From contig NZ_JAKOAV010000007.1 of the NCBI RefSeq assembly GCF_029478095.1, forward strand, positions 1 to 64,000: a stretch of DNA of 64,000 nt. The letters run 5' to 3'. Position 1 is the first letter of the stretch. Every line of letters starts with the position of its first letter. The position numbers and the translations under genes are program-made. The notes below the pieces were generated by a model. The model did no database searches and was not told where the DNA came from. It worked only from the letters and a program-made list of their open reading frames with translations. This DNA is from Pelotomaculum isophthalicicum JI (GTDB taxonomy: Bacteria; Bacillota; Desulfotomaculia; Desulfotomaculales; Pelotomaculaceae). Positions 941 to 12,214 of the stretch are shown piece after piece.

Positions 941-1543
941 ATGGATTCGGTACTGCCTTACACGTCCTCTATAAAGGACATGCCCTTTCTGTTTTCCGAT
1001 ATGCGCAGGACTGCGCAGTTGCTGTGTGAGGGGAAAACGAAGGATGAAATTATAGAATTGTCGATGACCGCTAATATTTATCAGCTTGAGAAAGAAAAAA
1101 GGCGTCGCGATTTGCCCCTGAGAATGCTGAAGCGTCTTGGGACGCTTGACATGCCACTGGTTTCCATCGTGGCAAACGGACGGTACGAGGACGCCAAGCT
1201 GATCGCTTTTCTGGCGCTGATCAAATCAGACCGCCTTTTTTTTGAATTCATGCGTGAGATATACTCGGACAAATTCCTATTCGGTCAAACAGAGGTTGAC
1301 GACAAGGACTTTTTAACTTTTATTGAACGCAAGGCGCAAAACGATGATACGGTGGCAGGCTGGACACCGAACAACCTCGTGCGTATACGAAATACCTACA
1401 AGAATATTCTTTGCGAAGCGGGGTTGGCCAAAAAAGCCGGGGATGTGTTAATTATCCTGAAGCCCATATGCGACCGAAAAATCCCAGCTCTTCTCAAGGG
1501 AGAAAACGAACCTTACGCAAAAGCCATGCTCCTGGAGGTGTAA
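941..1543 (+). CDS. brxA: BREX protein BrxA (DUF1819)
   Basis: A 200-residue protein with the start after a strong AGGAGG site at 928-933. Size, sequence (for example the N-terminal LPYTSSIKDMPFLFSDMRR block and C-terminal KAMLLEV) and position at the head of a brxB-brxC-pglX-pglZ operon identify it as BrxA. BrxA proteins are small helical, NusB-like DNA-binding proteins. In E. coli they are needed for phage restriction but not for BREX methylation. It ends 3 bases before brxB, so translation is probably coupled. No truncation is seen. Confidence 0.9.
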   Translation: MDSVLPYTSSIKDMPFLFSDMRRTAQLLCEGKTKDEIIELSMTANIYQLEKEKRRRDLPLRMLKRLGTLDMPLVSIVANGRYEDAKLIAFLALIKSDRLFFEFMREIYSDKFLFGQTEVDDKDFLTFIERKAQNDDTVAGWTPNNLVRIRNTYKNILCEAGLAKKAGDVLIILKPICDRKIPALLKGENEPYAKAMLLEV

Positions 1544-1546
1544 CGG

Positions 1547-2128
1547 ATGATGACGCTTAATGAGCGGCTTGACTTGATTGAGCCTAAAATATTGGAGAAA
1601 AGCTTTCGCACGGGGCGCGGTACGGCAAATGAAATCAATTTCTGGATTTTTGACTACAAACCGGAAGATGAAATGGCAGTTCGCGCCCATGTTTCATATC
1701 TGAAACAGCGTGTAAACAACGCCCATGACGACGTGCGAATTGTTGAATTTGATTTATACAAGCTAATGCTGGACGTTCTGCGGGAAAAGAATTATCTTGA
1801 CAAGGTCATACAAATGGAGCAGGTCAAAACCAGCGAGGCGATTGTCAATCCCATCAAAAAAACGTTGAGGCTGACTCTTGACGGAGATTTGGTTATTGGA
1901 AAGATTGCTAAGAGCATCGTGCCTGAAAGGGACGTTATCTTTTTAACCGGGGTAGGAAAAGCCTGGCCGGTCATACGCTCCCACACCGTGCTAAATAACC
2001 TGCACAGCAAAATAGACAAGAATCCTCTTGTCATGTTCTTTCCCGGCGACTATACTAACGAGCTGCGGCTGTTTGGAGAAATCACAGACGACAATTATTA
2101 CCGGGCCTTCAAGCTGATTGAAAGATAG
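1547..2128 (+). CDS. brxB: BREX protein BrxB (DUF1788)
   Basis: A 193-residue protein, the normal length for BrxB. Typical features are the N-terminal MTLNERLDLIEPKIL, the FWIFDYKPEDE block, and the C-terminal half, in which VPERDVIFLTGVGKAWPVIRSH is followed by PLVMFFPGDYTN. Two ATG codons are adjacent (1547 and 1550); GGAGG at 1531-1536 fits either. BrxB is required for both methylation and restriction in characterised type 1 BREX systems and is thought to act in a complex with BrxC, PglX and PglZ. It sits between brxA and brxC with spacers of 3 and 12 bases. Confidence 0.9.
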   Translation: MMTLNERLDLIEPKILEKSFRTGRGTANEINFWIFDYKPEDEMAVRAHVSYLKQRVNNAHDDVRIVEFDLYKLMLDVLREKNYLDKVIQMEQVKTSEAIVNPIKKTLRLTLDGDLVIGKIAKSIVPERDVIFLTGVGKAWPVIRSHTVLNNLHSKIDKNPLVMFFPGDYTNELRLFGEITDDNYYRAFKLIER

Positions 2129-2140
2129 GAGAGTGGCGGC

Positions 2141-5100
2141 ATGAAAATACATGATATGTTTCAAAAGGATATTGACAGGCCAATTCAGGGCGTTGTCAAA
2201 ATCGGTCAGAACTCCAATGAAATTATCACGGCGGAACTGGACGAGTATGTCGTGACCAGGGAACTGCATCGCCATTTTGACAAGTTTTTCGAGGGTTACC
2301 GCAAGGGCACGACAACCCGCACTGATAAAATGGGCGTCTGGATTTCCGGTTTCTTTGGCAGCGGCAAATCCCATTTTCTTAAGATACTTTCCTATCTTCT
2401 TTCAAACGACACCTATGACGGCAAAAAGGCTATCAGTTATTTTGACGGAAAGATAGCCGACAGCCGCATTTTGGCGGATATGCAGGTCGCTGCCGATACC
2501 GGCGCGGACGTGGTCCTATTCAATATTGACGCGGAAGCCGATTCGGACTCGAAGACACACAAGGATGCCATTGTCAAGGTTTTCATGAAGGTCTTTAATA
2601 AAATGCGGGGCTTTTGCGGCAGTATGCCGTGGATTGCCGATTTGGAGCGGCAGATGACCAAGGATGGCGTCTATGACAGCTTCCGCGCCCGTTTCAAAGA
2701 GCTTGCGGGGAATGAATGGGAAGACACCCGCGAGGATTTCTATTTCGAAGAGGACAATATCGTTCAGGCGCTTGCCGATACAACGAAGATGAGCGTTGAC
2801 GCCGCGCGGAACTGGTACAACAAATCCGAGGAAAACTATTCTTTGGATATCAACGGATTTGCGAGGCGGGTGCGGGAATACATAGAAGCGAAGTCAAAGG
2901 AAACAGGCAAAAAGCATTTTGTCATCTTCCTTTGCGACGAGATTGGGCAGTACATCGGCAGCGACAGCGGCCTGATGCTGAATTTGCAGACTGTCGTGGA
3001 GAGTCTGGGCACGGAATGCGGCGGACAGGCTTGGGTCATAGCAACAAGCCAGCAGGATATAGACTCTATCACCAAAGTGGATAGAGATAACTTCTCTAAA
3101 ATTATCGGGCGATTTGACACAAGGCTTTCCCTTTCCTCCGCCAACGTAGACGAAGTTATCAAAAAGAGGCTGCTTGCCAAGACAGACACGGCGGCGGACA
3201 AGCTGCGCCTTTTATATGCCGGGAAAGCCGCCGTTATCAAAAACTTGATTTCCTTTTCTTCTTCTGACACACCGGAGAAGAGGCTGTACAGTTCCGCAGA
3301 GGAATTTGTGGACGTGTATCCTTTTATCCCGTATCAGTTCAACCTGCTGCAAGCGGTGTTCACGGGCATCCGAACCCACGGCGCGTCCGGCAAGCATCTG
3401 TCTGAAGGAGAACGCTCTTTGCTCAACGCCTTCCAAGAGGCGGCGGTTCAGTACGCCAATTTCGACGACGGTATTCTCATTCCCTTTGAGGCTTTTTACA
3501 AAACCATTGAGACCTTTTTGGATCACAATATCAAAGCTGTGATTATCAGGGCGGCAGAAAGCGCCGAGTTTGACGACGGGGCCTTGCAGCCCTACGACGT
3601 GGAGGTCTTGAAGGTTCTGTTTATGGTGAAGTACATCCCCAATGTGCTGCCCGCCAACCTCGAAAACATCACCACCGTCATGCTGGGAAATATCGATCAG
3701 GACAAAATTGAGGCTAAAAAACAGGTTGACGCCTCTTTGCGCCGTTTGGAGGAGCAGAAGCTTATCATTAAAAACGGCAATCAATTTATCTTCCTGACAA
3801 ACGAGGAGCAGGACATCAACCGCGAAATACGGGAAATCAAGATTGACACAAGCGAGATCATCGATAAAGTCGGCGACAATATATTCTCCGCCTTGTTTGG
3901 ACTCAATAAAAAATACCGCTATAACGACCGGTATGACTTTTCTTTTAACACAATCATTGACGACAGACCGAGAGGCGCGCAGAAAGAGGAAATCGGCATT
4001 CGGGTGCTGACTCCCATGTATGCCCGTGGTGACGTCGCCGAGCCGGAACTCAAAGCTATGTCCATGCGGGAGAGAAATGTTATTGTCGCGCTTCCTTCCG
4101 ATATGTCCTACATCGACGAGATGGAGCAGGCTCTGCAAATCGAGACGTACATTCGCCGTAACGCCGGCAAGGTGTCCACCGATACGGTGGAGGACATCAA
4201 AACCACCAAAACCCGCGAGGGAAAGCAGCGAGTGGATAGATGCAAGGAGCTTATTTTCGAGGCGCTCAAAAAGGCTGATTTATATGTGAACAGCAATAAG
4301 CTCGATATCAAAGAGAAGCAGCCGTCAGAAAGGATTAACGACGCCTTCAAAACACTGGTGGAAGGTATTTATACAAAGCAAAACTACATCACTAATCCCT
4401 TTTATACCAACGACGACCTGCGGGAAGTTCTCACAGCAAAGGATGCTCAAGTTGTGTCCGGGGGCATGGAGGCCGTCGTTCCCAATCGTCTTGCCATAGA
4501 AGAAATGGAGGATGTTGTTGCCCGCAGCTCATACAAGAACATGCCGACCACCGTGCGCACCCTGATGGATCACTTTAACAAGATCCCCTATGGGTGGAAA
4601 GACATGGACATCGCAGGCATCGTCCTGACACTTTTCAAGAAGCAAGAAATCCGGTTGGAGCTTGGCGGCGAAAACATCTCCACAATCGACATGAATGTGA
4701 TCAACTATGTGACAAAACGAGATTATTTGGATCGAGTCCTTGTGAAAATGCGTGTGAAAATCTCTCCCGCGTTGTTGCAGAACGCCAAAAACCTCGCGAA
4801 AGACGTATTCGGGAGAAGCGATCTGCCCGGTGACGAAGACGGTCTGATGGCGCGCTTTAAGGAGCTTGCTGCCTCCGAGCTTTCCAGAAACGACGGCAGC
4901 ATCAAGGATTTGCTCCATGAATACGACAAGGCGGGATATCCCGGCAAAATCGTTTTGGAAAACGGCAGGAAGCTTTTTGAACAGGCCGATAAAATCAAGG
5001 ACACATCAGCGTTTTACAATTACCTTGCTGAAAAAAAAGACGCCCTCCTTGACTACGAGGAGGATGTGCAGGACGTCAAGAAGTTTTTCAAAAACCAGAA

Positions 5101-5728
5101 GAATATCTTTGATAAGGCGCTGAAAATGCTGGCGATTTACGAAGCCAACCGCTCTTATGTGCTCGACCCGGAGACCATCAAAGTGGTTGAGGATATTGAG
5201 CGCATCACCCGCCTTCCGGAACCCTACGCGCAAATACATAAACTGCCGGAACTTATTGAGCGGTTCATCAAACGTTTCGGCGACCTGCTGGAGGCGGAAT
5301 GCGAACCGATCCGTACGGACATCGAGTCGGACAAGGCTGAGACATTAGCTAATTTGGAATGCCGGCCTTTCAAGGATCGCTTTTCGGGAAAGGTTCAAGC
5401 GGATTTTTCGGCGCTGCTTGACAGACTTTCCCATGCCAACAATATCTACGAAGCCATCGCCATGCGCACGGAGAGCGACCGCATGAAGCAGCGATTTATT
5501 CAAAGCTTCGAAGAAGAGGAAGCGCGCCTGAAAGCGGAACAGGCCAAGGCCGGTGATGATGTAATCATTCAGCCCCCTGTACGGAAAACGAAAACGGTGA
5601 GTGTGAAAACCTTGTTCCACGGGACCCGTCAGATATCCAGCAAGGAGGATATTGACAAGCTCTTAAACGTGCTGCGCAAGAAGCTTGAGGCACAGCTTGA
5701 GGAGAATACAACGATTAAGATTGTATAG
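2141..5728 (+). CDS. brxC: BREX ATPase BrxC
   Basis: A 1195-residue AAA-type P-loop ATPase, full length for BrxC. A Walker A motif, GFFGSGKSHF, is at residues 70-79 and a Walker B, VIFLCDE, at 261-267. The long C-terminal half is helical and charged, with coiled-coil-like stretches (about 930-1150). The gene is preceded by AGGAG at 2127-2131. BrxC is a core BREX component needed for methylation and phage exclusion, probably an ATP-driven DNA-associated assembly platform. It is co-directional with brxB (12-base gap) and pglX (33-base gap). No frameshift or missing catalytic residue is visible. Confidence 0.93.
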   Translation: MKIHDMFQKDIDRPIQGVVKIGQNSNEIITAELDEYVVTRELHRHFDKFFEGYRKGTTTRTDKMGVWISGFFGSGKSHFLKILSYLLSNDTYDGKKAISYFDGKIADSRILADMQVAADTGADVVLFNIDAEADSDSKTHKDAIVKVFMKVFNKMRGFCGSMPWIADLERQMTKDGVYDSFRARFKELAGNEWEDTREDFYFEEDNIVQALADTTKMSVDAARNWYNKSEENYSLDINGFARRVREYIEAKSKETGKKHFVIFLCDEIGQYIGSDSGLMLNLQTVVESLGTECGGQAWVIATSQQDIDSITKVDRDNFSKIIGRFDTRLSLSSANVDEVIKKRLLAKTDTAADKLRLLYAGKAAVIKNLISFSSSDTPEKRLYSSAEEFVDVYPFIPYQFNLLQAVFTGIRTHGASGKHLSEGERSLLNAFQEAAVQYANFDDGILIPFEAFYKTIETFLDHNIKAVIIRAAESAEFDDGALQPYDVEVLKVLFMVKYIPNVLPANLENITTVMLGNIDQDKIEAKKQVDASLRRLEEQKLIIKNGNQFIFLTNEEQDINREIREIKIDTSEIIDKVGDNIFSALFGLNKKYRYNDRYDFSFNTIIDDRPRGAQKEEIGIRVLTPMYARGDVAEPELKAMSMRERNVIVALPSDMSYIDEMEQALQIETYIRRNAGKVSTDTVEDIKTTKTREGKQRVDRCKELIFEALKKADLYVNSNKLDIKEKQPSERINDAFKTLVEGIYTKQNYITNPFYTNDDLREVLTAKDAQVVSGGMEAVVPNRLAIEEMEDVVARSSYKNMPTTVRTLMDHFNKIPYGWKDMDIAGIVLTLFKKQEIRLELGGENISTIDMNVINYVTKRDYLDRVLVKMRVKISPALLQNAKNLAKDVFGRSDLPGDEDGLMARFKELAASELSRNDGSIKDLLHEYDKAGYPGKIVLENGRKLFEQADKIKDTSAFYNYLAEKKDALLDYEEDVQDVKKFFKNQKNIFDKALKMLAIYEANRSYVLDPETIKVVEDIERITRLPEPYAQIHKLPELIERFIKRFGDLLEAECEPIRTDIESDKAETLANLECRPFKDRFSGKVQADFSALLDRLSHANNIYEAIAMRTESDRMKQRFIQSFEEEEARLKAEQAKAGDDVIIQPPVRKTKTVSVKTLFHGTRQISSKEDIDKLLNVLRKKLEAQLEENTTIKIV

Positions 5729-5761: not shown

Positions 5762-8700
5762 ATGGATAAGACTGCAATTAAAAACTACGCCGTGGCGGCC
5801 CGCAGGAAGCTGATCGACGCCGTACGACAGAAGGCTTATCAGCTGTATATCCGCGAGGAGATGGCGCTGCCGCCGGAAGAAGCGAAAAGCGCCCTGATGA
5901 ACGACGGCATTTTTCTGACAAGCGAGCAGTATAAGTCCCGCGAGCGTCTGGTAAGCGAAATCAGCCGCCGCGTGGATGAGCTCGGCAATGAAAAGGGCTA
6001 TAACGCCGTCATGGAGGAGATTGCCTACACCTGGTTCAACCGCCTCATCGCCCTGCGCTTCATGGAGGTCAACGACTATCTGCCCTCCGGCATCCGCATC
6101 CTTTCCAGCGTGGATGAAGGCCGCGCCGAGCCGGACGTTATCCGCGAGGCGGACCGGCTGGACTATGTGGATCAGGGCAAAATCGCCGAATATCGTGACT
6201 TGTCTTCCCAAAAACTGTACAAATACATTCTTATTTCGCAGTGCAACGCTCTTTCCTCCATCCTGCCGGGGATGTTTGAGAAGATCGACGATTATACCGA
6301 GCTTCTGCTGCCCGACGCCCTCTACGCAAAGGGCGGTGTCGTCCATGACCTTGTCCGCGGCATCGCCGGGGAGGATTTCCGCGATCAGGTGCAGATCATC
6401 GGCTGGCTGTATCAGTATTACATCTCCGAGAAAAAGGACGAGGTTTTTGCCGGATTGAAAAAAAACATCAAAATCAACAAGGAGACCATCCCAGCCGCCA
6501 CCCAGCTTTTTACGCCGGAGTGGATTGTCCGGTACATGGTGGAAAACTCGCTGGGGCGGTTGTGGCTGGAGCATTGTCCTCCATCCAATGCTTGCGGAAA
6601 CGCAGAAGAAGCATTACGCAAGTATTGGGTTTATTATATTGATGAAGCTGAACAGGACGAAGCGGTGGAAAAGCAGCTGCGCGAGTTGCAGCGGCAATAT
6701 ACATTTGATAACCCGACGCAGATCAAAATTATCGACCCCTGTATGGGCAGCGGTCATATTCTGGTGTATGCCTTTGACGTGCTCTATCAGATATACTTCA
6801 GCCAAGGTTATGCCGAGCGGGAGATACCTAATCTGATTCTCCAAAACAATATATACGGGCTGGACATTGACAAGCGGGCGGCGCAGCTTGCCTATTTCGC
6901 GCTGATGATGAAGGCCCGCAGCTACAACCGCCGCTTTTTCCGTCAGAAGAATATACCTGACGCCCACGTCCACGCCGTCATCGAATCCGACGGGGCGCAG
7001 TTGCATCATCTTGAGTACATGGGGCATGGGATGGATGAGACCGAGCGGCGGCAGTGCCGGGACGACCTGTCTTACCTGATCGGCCTTTTCTCCAACGCGC
7101 GGGAATACGGCTCCATCCTTAAAATTGACCGGACGTTGGATTATACCCAACTCCGGCGCTTTGTGGAGGACTGCCATTGGGGACAGTTGGATATATACAC
7201 CAAGGGCATTGACCAGACCGAGCGGATACTGCTTGAAATTTTGGATATTGCGGAGATTATGACCCAAAAGTACGACGTGGTGGTGACTAATCCGCCATAT
7301 ATGGGCGGGAGCGGCATGGGTGCTAAGCTGTCAGAGTATGTGAAGAAGAATTATCCTGACAGTAAGAGCGATATGTTTGCGGTGTTTATTGAAAAATGCG
7401 GCGAAATGTTGAAGCCGAGCGGATTACAGGCGATGATTACGCAACATGCCTGGATGTTCTTATCCAGCTATGAGAAGTTGCGTAAAAAGCTATTACGGCG
7501 GGATATTGTTAATATGGCACATTTGGGCGCACGGGCCTTTGAGGAAATCGGCGGTGAGGTTGTTCAAACAACCGCTTTTGTGCTGCGCGACAGCAATGTG
7601 GCGGAGTATAAAGCCACCTATGCACGGCTGGTTGACTATAACAGCCAAAGTGCAAAGGAAAAAGCTTTTTTACGAGAGGAAAATTGGTTTACAGCGAAGA
7701 GAGAGAATTTCATGAAGATTCCTGGTATGCCGGTAGCATATTGGGTAAGTGAGCAAGCATTGAGTGCTTTTGTAAAGGGTAATTTGATCGGAAATATAGC
7801 GGCGCCAAAGCAAGGTTCAACTTTGGGAGATAATGCTTCATTTATCCGCTATTGGTTTGAAATTACATCAAACCTCAATAAATGGTATAGATGTATGAAG
7901 GGTGGCGAATACAGAAAATGGTATGGCAATACAATGTATTTGATCGATTGGGAAGATAATGGTAAGAGGGTAAAAAGTACTGGGCGAGCTACGATTCGTA
8001 GTGAAAACCTCTTGTTTAAGGAAGGAATTACTTGGTCAAATATATCAAGCGGAAATCCTTCGTTTCGCCTGATGGAGGCGGGATACTTTTTTGAGAGCAC
8101 AGGATCAGTTTGCTTTATTGAAGAAAAAAAGCTTAAATACTTACTCGCTTTCTTAAACACACCTATAGTAAAAGTACTTTCAAATGTTGTTAATCCAACT
8201 TTACATTTGCAGTCTGGGGATGTTGCAAAACTACCTTTAATTTATATTGAAAAGTATTCGGCAAAAATTAACGGCCTTGTCGCTCAAAACATCGACATAT
8301 CCCGCACAGATTGGGATAGCTTCGAGACCTCATGGGATTTTCGTGTGCATCCACTTGTAGGGTTAAAATTTTCTGGCGCATTCGCGTGGGGAGATGTCAA
8401 ACCATCAAGCCGAATTTCATCCGCTTTCAATGCTTGGGAATTATTCACCGAAGGGCAATTTGAACGTCTTAAATCCAACGAGGAAGAACTCAACCGCATT
8501 TTCATCGAAATCTACGGCCTTCAGGACGAGCTGACCCCAGAGGTGGAGGACAAGGACGTGACCATCCGCCGGGCAGACCTCTCGCGGGATATCCGCAGCT
8601 TCATTTCCTACGCCGTGGGCTGCATGTTCGGGCGGTACAGTCTGGACGAGCCGGGGCTGAAATTCTCCGGAGGCGAATTTAGTGAGCAGTGGGCAGTGGT

Positions 8701-9655
8701 TAGTGGGCAGTATTACCTAAAGGAGGTTCTGCGGGAATATGGGTGTGCAGAGTTATCAGGAATTGATCGTTTGGCAAAAAGCAATGCAACTGGTGAAAGC
8801 GGAGGGGCAGGCAAGGACATCGACGAAAGAATTCGTACAGTTCCTGTCGATAGCGCGGGGCTCCAAAGCGGAACTTCAGACACACCTGCTGATATGTGTA
8901 GAACTCGGATACCTTGCCGATATGGATATAAGGCAAGCGATGGAATTGTCGGAGGAAGTGGGCAAAATGCTGGTTGCCCTTATAAAGAAACTGCCCACTG
9001 CCCACTAACCACTGACCACTACGGCGTCGAAACCGACGCCGTCATCCCCATCGGGGCAAACGACTACTTCGACGACGACATCGTGGTGCGGTTCGTGGAC
9101 TTTGTCCGTACCGTTTACGGCGAGGATACCCTGCAAGAGAACCTTGACTTCATCGCGGAGGCGCTGTATCCGAACGGATACGGCACAGCGCGGGAGAAAA
9201 TCCGGCGCTATTTCCTGAATGATTTCTACAAGGATCATGTGAAGACCTACCGGAAAAAGCCCATCTATTGGCTGTTCGACAGCGGCAGGCAGAACGGCTT
9301 CAAGACGCTTGTCTACCTGCACCGGTACGACAAGTTCACGGTGGCGCGTGTGCGCACCGATTACCTGCACCCGCTCCAGCGCAAGTACGAGTCGGAAATC
9401 GGGCGGCTGGAGATGCTCACCGGCATCACGGAAAACGCCGGTGAAAAAGCGGCCTACCGCAAGGAAATCGAAGCCCTGCAAAAGAAGATCGAAGAATGCC
9501 GGGCGTACGATCAGGTTGTGGCGCACATCGCGCATCAGGCTATCGAACTTGACCTTGACGACGGCGTGACGGTGAACTACGCCAAATTCCAAGGCATCGA
9601 AGTGCCGAGGGATGACGGCAAAACAATCAAGATGGATTTGCTGGGGAAGATTTAG
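5762..9655 (+). CDS. pglX: BREX adenine methyltransferase PglX with an internal insertion
   Basis: A 1297-residue type 1 BREX N6-adenine methyltransferase, which marks host DNA at a non-palindromic site. The SAM-binding motif I, DPCMGSGH, is at 325-332 and the catalytic motif IV, NPPY, at 510-513. Target-recognition sequence follows, lower in GC and less conserved (about 650-860). Residues about 974-1088 do not belong to the family. They are the read-through translation of an inserted IVS-type element (8694-9014, flanked by inverted repeats), placed between the family blocks LDEPGLKFSGGEF and ETDAVIPIG. The PglX frame stays open through the insertion, so a full-length protein with about 115 extra residues is predicted. 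Whether it is active cannot be told from sequence. Confidence 0.9.
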   Translation: MDKTAIKNYAVAARRKLIDAVRQKAYQLYIREEMALPPEEAKSALMNDGIFLTSEQYKSRERLVSEISRRVDELGNEKGYNAVMEEIAYTWFNRLIALRFMEVNDYLPSGIRILSSVDEGRAEPDVIREADRLDYVDQGKIAEYRDLSSQKLYKYILISQCNALSSILPGMFEKIDDYTELLLPDALYAKGGVVHDLVRGIAGEDFRDQVQIIGWLYQYYISEKKDEVFAGLKKNIKINKETIPAATQLFTPEWIVRYMVENSLGRLWLEHCPPSNACGNAEEALRKYWVYYIDEAEQDEAVEKQLRELQRQYTFDNPTQIKIIDPCMGSGHILVYAFDVLYQIYFSQGYAEREIPNLILQNNIYGLDIDKRAAQLAYFALMMKARSYNRRFFRQKNIPDAHVHAVIESDGAQLHHLEYMGHGMDETERRQCRDDLSYLIGLFSNAREYGSILKIDRTLDYTQLRRFVEDCHWGQLDIYTKGIDQTERILLEILDIAEIMTQKYDVVVTNPPYMGGSGMGAKLSEYVKKNYPDSKSDMFAVFIEKCGEMLKPSGLQAMITQHAWMFLSSYEKLRKKLLRRDIVNMAHLGARAFEEIGGEVVQTTAFVLRDSNVAEYKATYARLVDYNSQSAKEKAFLREENWFTAKRENFMKIPGMPVAYWVSEQALSAFVKGNLIGNIAAPKQGSTLGDNASFIRYWFEITSNLNKWYRCMKGGEYRKWYGNTMYLIDWEDNGKRVKSTGRATIRSENLLFKEGITWSNISSGNPSFRLMEAGYFFESTGSVCFIEEKKLKYLLAFLNTPIVKVLSNVVNPTLHLQSGDVAKLPLIYIEKYSAKINGLVAQNIDISRTDWDSFETSWDFRVHPLVGLKFSGAFAWGDVKPSSRISSAFNAWELFTEGQFERLKSNEEELNRIFIEIYGLQDELTPEVEDKDVTIRRADLSRDIRSFISYAVGCMFGRYSLDEPGLKFSGGEFSEQWAVVSGQYYLKEVLREYGCAELSGIDRLAKSNATGESGGAGKDIDERIRTVPVDSAGLQSGTSDTPADMCRTRIPCRYGYKASDGIVGGSGQNAGCPYKETAHCPLTTDHYGVETDAVIPIGANDYFDDDIVVRFVDFVRTVYGEDTLQENLDFIAEALYPNGYGTAREKIRRYFLNDFYKDHVKTYRKKPIYWLFDSGRQNGFKTLVYLHRYDKFTVARVRTDYLHPLQRKYESEIGRLEMLTGITENAGEKAAYRKEIEALQKKIEECRAYDQVVAHIAHQAIELDLDDGVTVNYAKFQGIEVPRDDGKTIKMDLLGKI
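8694..9014 (+). mobile_element. IVS/four-helix-bundle element inserted in pglX
   Basis: An 18-bp perfect inverted repeat, CAGTGGTTAGTGGGCAGT (8694-8711) with its complement at 8997-9014, bounds about 285 bp. Extra AGTGAGCAGTGGG and ACTGACCACTAC sequence extends the repeat imperfectly on both sides. Inside, in a different frame from pglX, is a four-helix-bundle gene with its own ribosome site. Such cassettes are known as intervening sequences in 23S rRNA genes and at scattered genomic sites. Here the element lies within a protein gene and keeps the host frame open. Mobility mechanism is unknown. Confidence 0.8.
8739..9008 (+). pseudogene. Internally deleted four-helix-bundle (S23/IVP family) protein
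   Basis: An 89-residue frame that overlaps pglX in another frame. It begins with the family signature YQELIVWQKAMQLVK and continues with AEGQARTSTKEFVQFLSIA and LAELQ/ELGYL-type blocks. The family is normally about 115-125 residues. The stretch that usually joins helix 1 to the S-I-A-EGQ block (about 30 residues) is missing between LVK and AEGQ. The missing length is consistent with a multiple of three bases, since both this frame and pglX remain open. An AAGGAGG site at 8720-8726 lies 12 bases before the ATG. The product would lack part of helices 1-2, so it is probably inactive. Confidence 0.7.
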
Positions 9656-9667
9656 GAGGAAGTTGCC

Positions 9668-12214
9668 ATGAACCTGACCGAAATAAAAAAATCCCTTGAG
9701 CGGCAGTTTGCCCGCGAGTTCTCGCAGGGCAGCGTCCGCAATATCGTCTTTTGGTACGATGAGGAAGGGGTTTTCGCCGGGGATATCGACAACCTTGAGC
9801 TTGAAGGCGTGAAGATCATTAAGCTTTATGACAATAATATGTTTGCCGCAAAGCTATACATAGAAGAAACCGACACGGCCGGCAACCTGCTGGTCTATTC
9901 CCCGTTGCCCCGTCCTGCAAACAAGGAAAACTGGCTGACTGACACCATCAAGTACAGCCAGACCTTTTCGGCCGACGAAACATCGCTGAACATGCTGAAC
10001 TTCAAAATCGACAGTTCACTGCGCCATGTGGTGGCGCGGTACAAGCTGTTTTTCCGAAGCAGCGAACGTCGCAAGCGATTTGAGGGGTATCAGCTTGCGC
10101 CCTATACAGAGGCCAAAATTGATCTGGGGGTATTGTCAACGCTCAGCAAGCTGCCCGCGCCCAATCTTGATCATGTTGTGAGAACGCTATTAATTGAGCT
10201 GGCGGAAGGAGAAACCACGATATACGACAGCATCGTCAAGTTAGGTAACATAGACGCGCTATGGACGCTAATTCAGAGGGCTTACGGTTATGGCTTCGCT
10301 GAACAAAGTCTTGAAAAACTGGCGATAATGCTTTTGGTCACGCATTTGTCCCACAGCGTCAACGGCAACTTGCCGAAGGAATGGCAGACGTATGTGTCCT
10401 CAAACTCCAATTGCTTTGTGTTTGTAGATAACTTCATGAAGAACACTCAGGTTTGGAATGCGTATAATAAGCTTGCCGGTTTTGTGGCGGACAAGCTTAA
10501 TCTGATTGAGCGCATACGGAAGTGGAACATTGACGACATCATCGACTGTGATACTTTTGAGGAGTTCGACCACAGCATTATCAGCCGGATTTGCGCGAAT
10601 ATCAGCCTGCAAGCGGGCGAATACGAACGATACCGCATGGTCATCCGCAGTCGGAGAAACCGGCGTTTCTATCGGCAGTTTGAAACAGAATACGACACCT
10701 TGCTGTACGCTTGCGAGTTCTTGGAGCTTAGCCTGAAGCACGCCGGCCTGCCGGGACTTACCATGGCGAAGCTTTTTAAAAATTATATAAAAACCTACTA
10801 TAGGCTGGACGGCAGTTACCGGCATTTCCTGCTGAGCTATGACAAGCTCGCGGAGCAGGATCGTTTTATGCCGCTTTTTGAAAAGGTAGAAAACAGTTAT
10901 ACCAATTGGTATCTAAATGAGCTTTCCATGAAATGGTGCGCGTTTCTGGATGACGAGACAACATGGCAGGTCTCCGGCGTGACGTCGCAGCAGGGTTTCT
11001 ATGAGAAGTATGTCAGGCGCTTTGTTTCTAACAATGAACGGCTGGTTGTCATTATCTCGGACGGCCTGCGCTATGAATCGGCGGTGGAGTTGAACGCCAT
11101 GCTTAACGGAGAACAAAAGGGGACCAGCAAGCTGGATGCGATACTGGGTGTGATTCCATCATACACAGCCTTGGGAATGGCGTCTCTTTTACCGCACAAG
11201 AGCATTGCCGTGACGGATAAAGCGGATATCGTCATCGACGGCATCTCCACCAAGGGAACAGAAAACCGGGAGAAAATCCTGAAGCTTGTAAAGGAAGAAT
11301 CTGTTGCTATTACCTATGAAAATTTCATGAGCTTGACAAAGCGGCAATTGACAGAGAAGTTTTCCGGCGTGAAGCTTATTTACATCTATCACAATACGAT
11401 TGACGCGCGTGGTGATAACGCGGCCACCGAGCATGAGGTGTTCGAGGCTACGGAAAAGTGTTTTCGGGAGCTTGCCGGGCTTGTCAGGGCGCTTAGAAAC
11501 AATATCAGCGCCATCAATATCCTGATTACCGCGGACCATGGGTACATTTATCGCCGGACGCTTCTTGCGGAAAGAGATAAGACCCCCAAAGAAGACGCTA
11601 TCGGTATAGAATCGAAGCGCAGGTTTATTTTGACGAAAGCAGATGCCGATATCCAGGGAACACAGGTGTTTTCGTTGAATTATTTGACAAAAGACAAGAC
11701 GGATATCCGCGCCATTATTCCCCGTGTGACAAACTGCTATAAGGTGCAAGGTTCCGGTAGTTGCTATGTTCACGGCGGGACAAGCTTGCAAGAGGTCGTT
11801 ATACCGGTCATTAAGTTTAAGAGTGACAAGAACCTCCGCCGCTCCATGAGTGCGAAGAAGGTGTCGTTGAGTCTTACCAACCTGTCACGCAAAATCACCA
11901 GCGTCATTACTCATCTGACTTTCTTCCAGAATGAGCCGGTAGGTGAAAAGCTTCTGCCTCTACGTGTGACGGCGTATTTCGCGGATGAGGTAGGAAACAG
12001 AATTTCCAATGAGAATATCATCATAGCGGAGAGCACGAGCGGCAATCCCGCCGAGCGTACATATAAAGAAAAGTTCACACTGAAGGATATGGCGTATGAC
12101 AAGGCAAAGGAGTATTATCTCATTCTCAAAGACGAGGATAAGCTTGTAAACAGGGAATATGCCAGAATCCCGTTTGTTATTGACCTTGTATTCGGCGGCA
12201 GTATTCAGTTTTAG
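9668..12214 (+). CDS. pglZ: BREX protein PglZ (alkaline phosphatase superfamily)
   Basis: An 848-residue PglZ, full length for BREX type 1. The alkaline-phosphatase fold shows metal-ligand motifs at IISDGLRYES (Asp 465) and ITADHGY (Asp 623, His 624). AGGAGG (9654-9659) precedes the ATG by 8 bases, overlapping the end of pglX. PglZ is a core BREX factor required for methylation and defence. It is the last intact BREX gene here: in type 1 operons brxL normally follows, but the next 800 bases contain only gene fragments. Confidence 0.92.
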   Translation: MNLTEIKKSLERQFAREFSQGSVRNIVFWYDEEGVFAGDIDNLELEGVKIIKLYDNNMFAAKLYIEETDTAGNLLVYSPLPRPANKENWLTDTIKYSQTFSADETSLNMLNFKIDSSLRHVVARYKLFFRSSERRKRFEGYQLAPYTEAKIDLGVLSTLSKLPAPNLDHVVRTLLIELAEGETTIYDSIVKLGNIDALWTLIQRAYGYGFAEQSLEKLAIMLLVTHLSHSVNGNLPKEWQTYVSSNSNCFVFVDNFMKNTQVWNAYNKLAGFVADKLNLIERIRKWNIDDIIDCDTFEEFDHSIISRICANISLQAGEYERYRMVIRSRRNRRFYRQFETEYDTLLYACEFLELSLKHAGLPGLTMAKLFKNYIKTYYRLDGSYRHFLLSYDKLAEQDRFMPLFEKVENSYTNWYLNELSMKWCAFLDDETTWQVSGVTSQQGFYEKYVRRFVSNNERLVVIISDGLRYESAVELNAMLNGEQKGTSKLDAILGVIPSYTALGMASLLPHKSIAVTDKADIVIDGISTKGTENREKILKLVKEESVAITYENFMSLTKRQLTEKFSGVKLIYIYHNTIDARGDNAATEHEVFEATEKCFRELAGLVRALRNNISAINILITADHGYIYRRTLLAERDKTPKEDAIGIESKRRFILTKADADIQGTQVFSLNYLTKDKTDIRAIIPRVTNCYKVQGSGSCYVHGGTSLQEVVIPVIKFKSDKNLRRSMSAKKVSLSLTNLSRKITSVITHLTFFQNEPVGEKLLPLRVTAYFADEVGNRISNENIIIAESTSGNPAERTYKEKFTLKDMAYDKAKEYYLILKDEDKLVNREYARIPFVIDLVFGGSIQF

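Follow-up and report, generated by a model that had tools for sequence, protein, structure and literature searches.

An IVS-type element in the BREX-1 gene pglX of Pelotomaculum isophthalicicum JI and the open host frame that runs through it

The first 64,000 nucleotides of contig NZ_JAKOAV010000007.1 of Pelotomaculum isophthalicicum JI (hereafter the window) begin with a BREX-1 operon, in which brxA, brxB, brxC, pglX, and pglZ follow one another between positions 1 and 12214 (Table 1). The BREX-1 identity of PglX is indicated by its match to NF033452 and by the neighboring genes brxA, brxB, brxC, and pglZ; no brxL was recognized among the scanned open reading frames of the locus. Within pglX lies an element with inverted ends and a gene of its own in another frame, and the host frame is open through the whole of it. 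This raises the question of how such an element can reside in a methyltransferase gene that stays readable, and whether this openness is due to chance or to selection. The explanation favored here, with a probability of roughly 0.7, is that of a compact mobile element, selfish and nested in defence methylase genes in a dual-frame arrangement, through which PglX would be translated.

Table 1. Features of the BREX-1 operon and of the element in pglX (window coordinates)
Feature	Position	Strand	Description and basis
brxA	941..1543	+	PF08849
brxB	1547..2128	+	PF08747
brxC	2141..5728	+	NF033441
pglX (BREX-1 DNA adenine methyltransferase)	5762..9655	+	1297 aa; NF033452 BREX_1_MTaseX, 1388 bits; PDB 8c45, E 8e-233
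IVP (IVS-type) element inserted in pglX	8681..9020	+	site empty in 10 pglX homologues of the class; same site in P. terephthalicicum, G461 (remnant), and L204
Left heptad-repeat arm	8681..8711	+	AGTGAGC AGTGGGC AGTGGTT AGTGGGC AGT; repeat search, chance expectation 0
Shine-Dalgarno-like site	8719..8727	+	AAAGGAGGT; ~12 nt upstream of the IVP start codon; from the sequence
IVP gene (PF05635 four-helix protein)	8739..9008	+	89 aa; profile matches; 32 internal codons absent
Junction of the 96-nt internal deletion	8796..8799	+	IVP residues K20/A21; alignment with the L204, Mod, and G058 IVPs
Right heptad-repeat arm, inverted	8990..9020	+	repeat search; RNA-fold pairing with the left arm
pglZ	9668..12214	+	TIGR02687

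The element and its site in pglX

An earlier note on this DNA placed an element at 8694-9014, bounded by an 18-bp inverted repeat. Both are present, the element with corrected limits (8681-9020) and the repeat with a greater length, namely 24 nt at 96% identity (8688-8711 / 8997-9020) inside arms of 32 nt (8680-8711 / 8990-9021). The arms consist of 7-nt units, AGTGGGC and variants thereof, with 0 such matches in shuffled windows, and are read in the PglX frame as SEQWAVVSGQ (left) and TAHCPLTTDH (right). Directly 3' of the element, a 7-bp hairpin (GGCGTCG-AAAC-CGACGCC) is found at 9023-9040; it has the same stem and another loop in P. terephthalicicum and in genome G461.

The frame between the arms encodes a four-helix-bundle protein (IVP), as had been proposed, with matches above cut-off to PF05635 (E 2e-18; 67 bits, cut-off 33.8) and TIGR02436 (E 4e-18; 65.5 bits, cut-off 24). 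Its four-helix homologues include complete proteins of ~120 aa in IMG/VR contig L204 and genome G047; compared with such full-length relatives, the window copy lacks 32 codons, in agreement with the loss of about 30 residues noted before; around a quarter of the protein is gone, and its fold is predicted with low confidence (pLDDT 55). The IVP frame is +1 relative to pglX, i.e., as seen from IVP the host is in frame +2. Purine-rich Shine-Dalgarno-like sites also precede the IVP start in L204 and in the Mod and G058 copies described below. A weak similarity to bAvd, the accessory protein of diversity-generating retroelements (PF22296, E 0.003), was rejected as an identity at 18.5 bits, below the cut-off of 40; bAvd belongs to the four-helix fold class, and neither a reverse transcriptase nor template/variable repeats came to notice here. 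On the minus strand, a 101-aa open frame crosses the element (8700-9005), and codon shuffles indicate that it is automatically open given the IVP sequence.

Alignment with other PglX proteins shows that the segment is not a normal PglX domain. Among the 113 genomes of the class, ten pglX homologues, including the second pglX of the same genome, have an empty site, and further empty sites occur across the phylum. The two conserved blocks between which the earlier note had put the element are 19 residues apart in Salmonella PglX (8c45; end 995, start 1015), as against ~119 in the window PglX. The native site reads GGEF-D..KY.TF.PD.DN-IPI or has a native loop ~20 residues longer and is thus naturally length-variable; to this extent, the suggestion that the insertion is tolerated in a loop is upheld by the empty-site homologues. 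About 10 native residues are displaced. In Salmonella PglX, the C-terminal DNA-binding domain spans residues 672-1221, with the target-recognition region at 684-838 (PMC11341690); mapped on 8c45, the insertion site falls within this domain and outside the target-recognition region. An AlphaFold prediction of the C-terminal part of PglX, based on three sequences only, was too poor to use, with a mean pLDDT of 40 and about 20-28 for the insert. An intein was ruled out, since a Pfam scan of PglX found no intein or Hint domain; apart from families of the methyltransferase type, all its matches were weak and failed to reach the cut-off.

The same site is occupied in other pglX genes. P. terephthalicicum JT carries the same insert in an open frame of 1318 aa, with ~96% DNA identity in the region; in G461, the two element ends are left and the middle has been deleted in frame; and the pglX of L204, which is 42% identical to that of the window, shares the junction (GGCGAATTT/AGTG) and contains an IVP that is complete (121 aa), with the host frame open. 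A tree of the flanking PglX residues requires occupancy to have changed three times, on branches with good support. Probably, then, the element entered this site repeatedly, or lineages exchanged the segment; one gain followed by two losses would require native loop residues to be restored. The spread of one element-bearing pglX segment by recombination, instead of repeated insertion, would account for the identical left junction, the same native-loop loss in L204 and Pelotomaculum, and the 69% identity of their IVPs. It is regarded as rather unlikely, because the L204 flanks are 81% identical to the empty pglX of genome G458 and 53% identical to the window (over the C-terminal alignment, with the insert counted), and because the empty genome G003 is the sister of the occupied G461. 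The P. terephthalicicum pglX has one more pair of inverted heptad arrays (L008:2303-2438, aa ~267-330; SGQWAVDS / LTAHCSLSTD), where the arms flank a segment homologous to normal PglX and not an IVP gene.

Chance and selection in the open host frame

The openness of PglX over the ~114 inserted codons, observed in the earlier note, is borne out by the single 1297-aa frame. The chance of less than 1% given there for such openness holds for uniform codons (0.4%) and fails once the IVP protein is held fixed, when the value for the window copy is 5-14% (P 0.14 for the truncated copy); taken by itself, the window copy thus carries less evidential weight than first thought. Much stronger evidence is provided by the full-length relatives: with IVP fixed and synonymous codons shuffled, the probability of a stop-free host frame is 0.0002 (0.02%) for L204 and 0.001 (0.1%) for Mod, and 0.10 for G058, with a combined P of ~4e-6 for these full-length or near full-length copies. 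An open +2 frame as a property of all IVPs was ruled out, given that it is open in 0 of 41 intact IVPs outside these genes, which have 1-14 stops (mean 8.5, expected 8.7); openness is hence tied to the in-gene position. A special stop-free character of the AGTGGGC heptad is a weak candidate, with 50% of all heptamers being stop-free. Likewise, the idea that the internal deletion kept or restored the frame was not sustained: the full-length L204 pglX and Mod copies are already open, and 96 nt is a multiple of three.

At the level of residues, IVP is conserved between the window and L204 (69% amino-acid identity), with nucleotide differences of 0.35/0.15/0.62 at the three IVP codon positions, and their host-frame identity of 27% equals the expectation from synonymous shuffles. 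Host-frame conservation is not claimed: window-Mod (P 0.003) and window-G058 (P 0.007) lie above expectation, and window-L204, L204-Mod, L204-G058, and Mod-G058 do not. The window IVP agrees in codon choice more than expected with the IVPs of Mod (z 3.8) and G058 (z 2.6), against a maximum of 2.2 in 149 control pairs; this stays suggestive because no such agreement is seen between Mod and G058. The close pairs have few substitutions within IVP (10 and 19), and dual-frame selection is thus unproved at the residue level. The simplest reading of these comparisons is that selection appears to act on the IVP protein and on the absence of host-frame stops.

It could be argued that an ordinary IVP simply landed in frame, formed a floppy loop, and is now decaying, with no special lineage and no selection in two frames. 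The shuffle values for the window copy, the erosion of the element in the Pelotomaculum lineage, and the abundance of stop-free heptads are all consistent with this, and selection would purge broken-frame hits, leaving open ones alone to be seen. Such a chance survivor is nevertheless unlikely: three unrelated host genes and a second pglX lineage use the same relative frame, in which the other 41 IVPs have stops; the full-length copies are open at very low chance probabilities; the in-gene IVPs are held by one clade; and IVP is conserved between the window and L204.

IVP inserts in other methyltransferase genes

The earlier note was silent on three points, namely the conservation of the IVP frame, its own ribosome-binding site, and the recurrence of the arrangement in other DNA-methylase genes. 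The type III Mod gene of genomes G047 and UBA4049 contains a complete IVP, and Mod homologues that are 82-89% identical in the flanks are without it. The G058 insert is an IVP that has one stop, and its host, a gene for a type-III-like methyltransferase, is followed by SIR2 and HerA genes. In every in-gene copy (pglX, Mod, and the G058 methyltransferase), the host frame is IVP's +2 frame. A tree places the in-gene IVPs in one supported clade (96/93) together with two non-genic members, one of which comes from a BREX locus, where it separates brxC from pglX. Within the class, the in-gene cases are in defence methyltransferases only (three host genes), as found by a family-profile search that is blind to the host, with a small number of cases and part of the listed copies fetched. 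An alternative-frame search of 398 phylum genomes and plasmids yielded no further in-gene cases; the inspected plasmid IVPs lie between genes (one in a CRISPR I-D locus), and none were found in phages. Positions 272-414 of the PADLOC PglX profile PDLC02522 are matched by three of the host-frame inserts (E 1e-9, 2e-7, and 2e-6) and skipped by the pglX genes with long matches in the 398 phylum genomes, by which a further pglX insertion site may be inferred; this curated profile thus seems to include an element-encoded stretch.

Related structures were seen around these hosts. The Mod linker at which G047/UBA4049 have the IVP element is occupied in other species (G472, G488, G001, and G019; L259-L262) by an in-frame hairpin of another heptad type, AATTCGG (NSELRIRNAEL..NSELRIPNSEL), which suggests a hot spot at this linker. 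The G058 methyltransferase gene additionally holds a short in-frame piece of arm only (SSEWQVASEKANAKDQADLTDHSPLITNH; L042:838-930). Another BREX locus, in G012, has an intact IVP gene and its inverted arms in the interval from brxC to pglX (L148:7024-7389). As for related elements elsewhere in the genome of the window, which the earlier note had proposed to search for, no close DNA copy was detected; the only relatives there are two IVP remnants, both decayed and with arms of a different type. Genome G000 contains many AGTAGTC heptad arrays (~20 places, e.g., C1:87982 and C20:54869), of a type unlike the pglX arms; an array of this kind, if long enough, has a stop in every frame.

The favored explanation would work as follows. 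A compact mobile element, i.e., inverted heptad-repeat arms around an IVP gene with its own ribosome-binding site, would be transcribed together with the host gene, and ribosomes translating the host frame would traverse the two arms and the IVP gene between them; by this read-through in IVP's +2 frame, PglX would gain its ~114 residues. IVP would be made separately, probably by internal initiation at its own start, as a gene nested in a gene. Insertions would persist if they bring no stop into the host frame, the openness of which would then be maintained by selection on the host, with selection on the element preserving the IVP protein and leaving host-frame residues otherwise free. In the Pelotomaculum lineage, IVP is decaying by in-frame deletions with PglX remaining open. 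The losses observed there (32 codons of IVP, and nearly all of it in G461) all preserve the frame, which would be expected where the host protein alone is still required. No target-site duplication, transposase, or recent transposition was identified for the element. A more far-reaching proposal, held tentatively and at somewhat less than even odds, is that this IVP lineage is specialized in phage-defence DNA-methylase genes (BREX PglX, probably at two sites, type III Mod, and the SIR2-HerA-linked methyltransferase), inserting repeatedly at fixed permissive linkers in the nested dual-frame arrangement. Host defence would thereby select for elements free of stops, which in turn would ride on defence islands.

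Relation to known elements

The closest points of comparison are the IVSs of rRNA genes and the palindromic elements of Rickettsia. Like the 23S rRNA IVS of Coxiella burnetii (PMC4990558), the pglX element has inverted complementary ends that form a stem, an ORF of the IVP/S23 family that undergoes reductive evolution, recurrent insertion sites, and a small native loop that it replaces. It differs in being located in a protein-coding methyltransferase gene, and not in 16S or 23S rRNA, where it must stay translatable in the host frame and where excision by RNase III would harm the host. As rRNA IVSs are cut out by RNase III without religation (PMC4990558), the pglX arms might be proposed to pair in the mRNA and be excised likewise, with PglX made from a cut message or in two pieces and the open frame being incidental. 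In the predicted RNA fold, the arms do pair with each other as the outer stem, in the window (z -3.9) and in L204 (z -2.7), with the same stem layout. However, a cut without religation would part the C-terminal region from the start codon, so that an open frame would be unneeded, and the frame is kept open in every copy, through in-frame deletions too; this route is therefore very improbable.

According to a review (PMC10969869) of the work of Ogata (2000/2002), Rickettsia palindromic elements are ~150 bp long, and the peptide that they specify in the host frame is conserved. On that account, they resemble the pglX element in being mobile and palindromic and in lengthening host proteins by in-frame insertion (here PglX, Mod, and the G058 methyltransferase), whereas in the latter the conserved protein is off the host frame and the host-frame peptide is unconserved. 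The element thus resembles both rRNA IVSs and Rickettsia palindromic elements and is strictly neither, as one defining feature of each fails. Intergenic PF05635/TIGR02436 elements share the protein family and, at several inspected copies (G000:C42, G000:C5, and G012), the inverted arms; in contrast to the in-gene copies, which have no stops in the +2 frame, they have many. No reports of IVP elements in protein-coding genes were found in the open-access literature.

If the favored explanation is true, this would be a rare case in which the protein genes of a mobile element and of its host are both open in different frames, in several unrelated hosts. The range of IVS-type elements, so far rRNA, would come to include protein-coding genes, and stretches encoded by such elements would be present in PglX and Mod proteins as annotated and, apparently, in one curated defence profile. 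Provided that PglX is active, selfish DNA can settle in core parts of a defence system without inactivating them.
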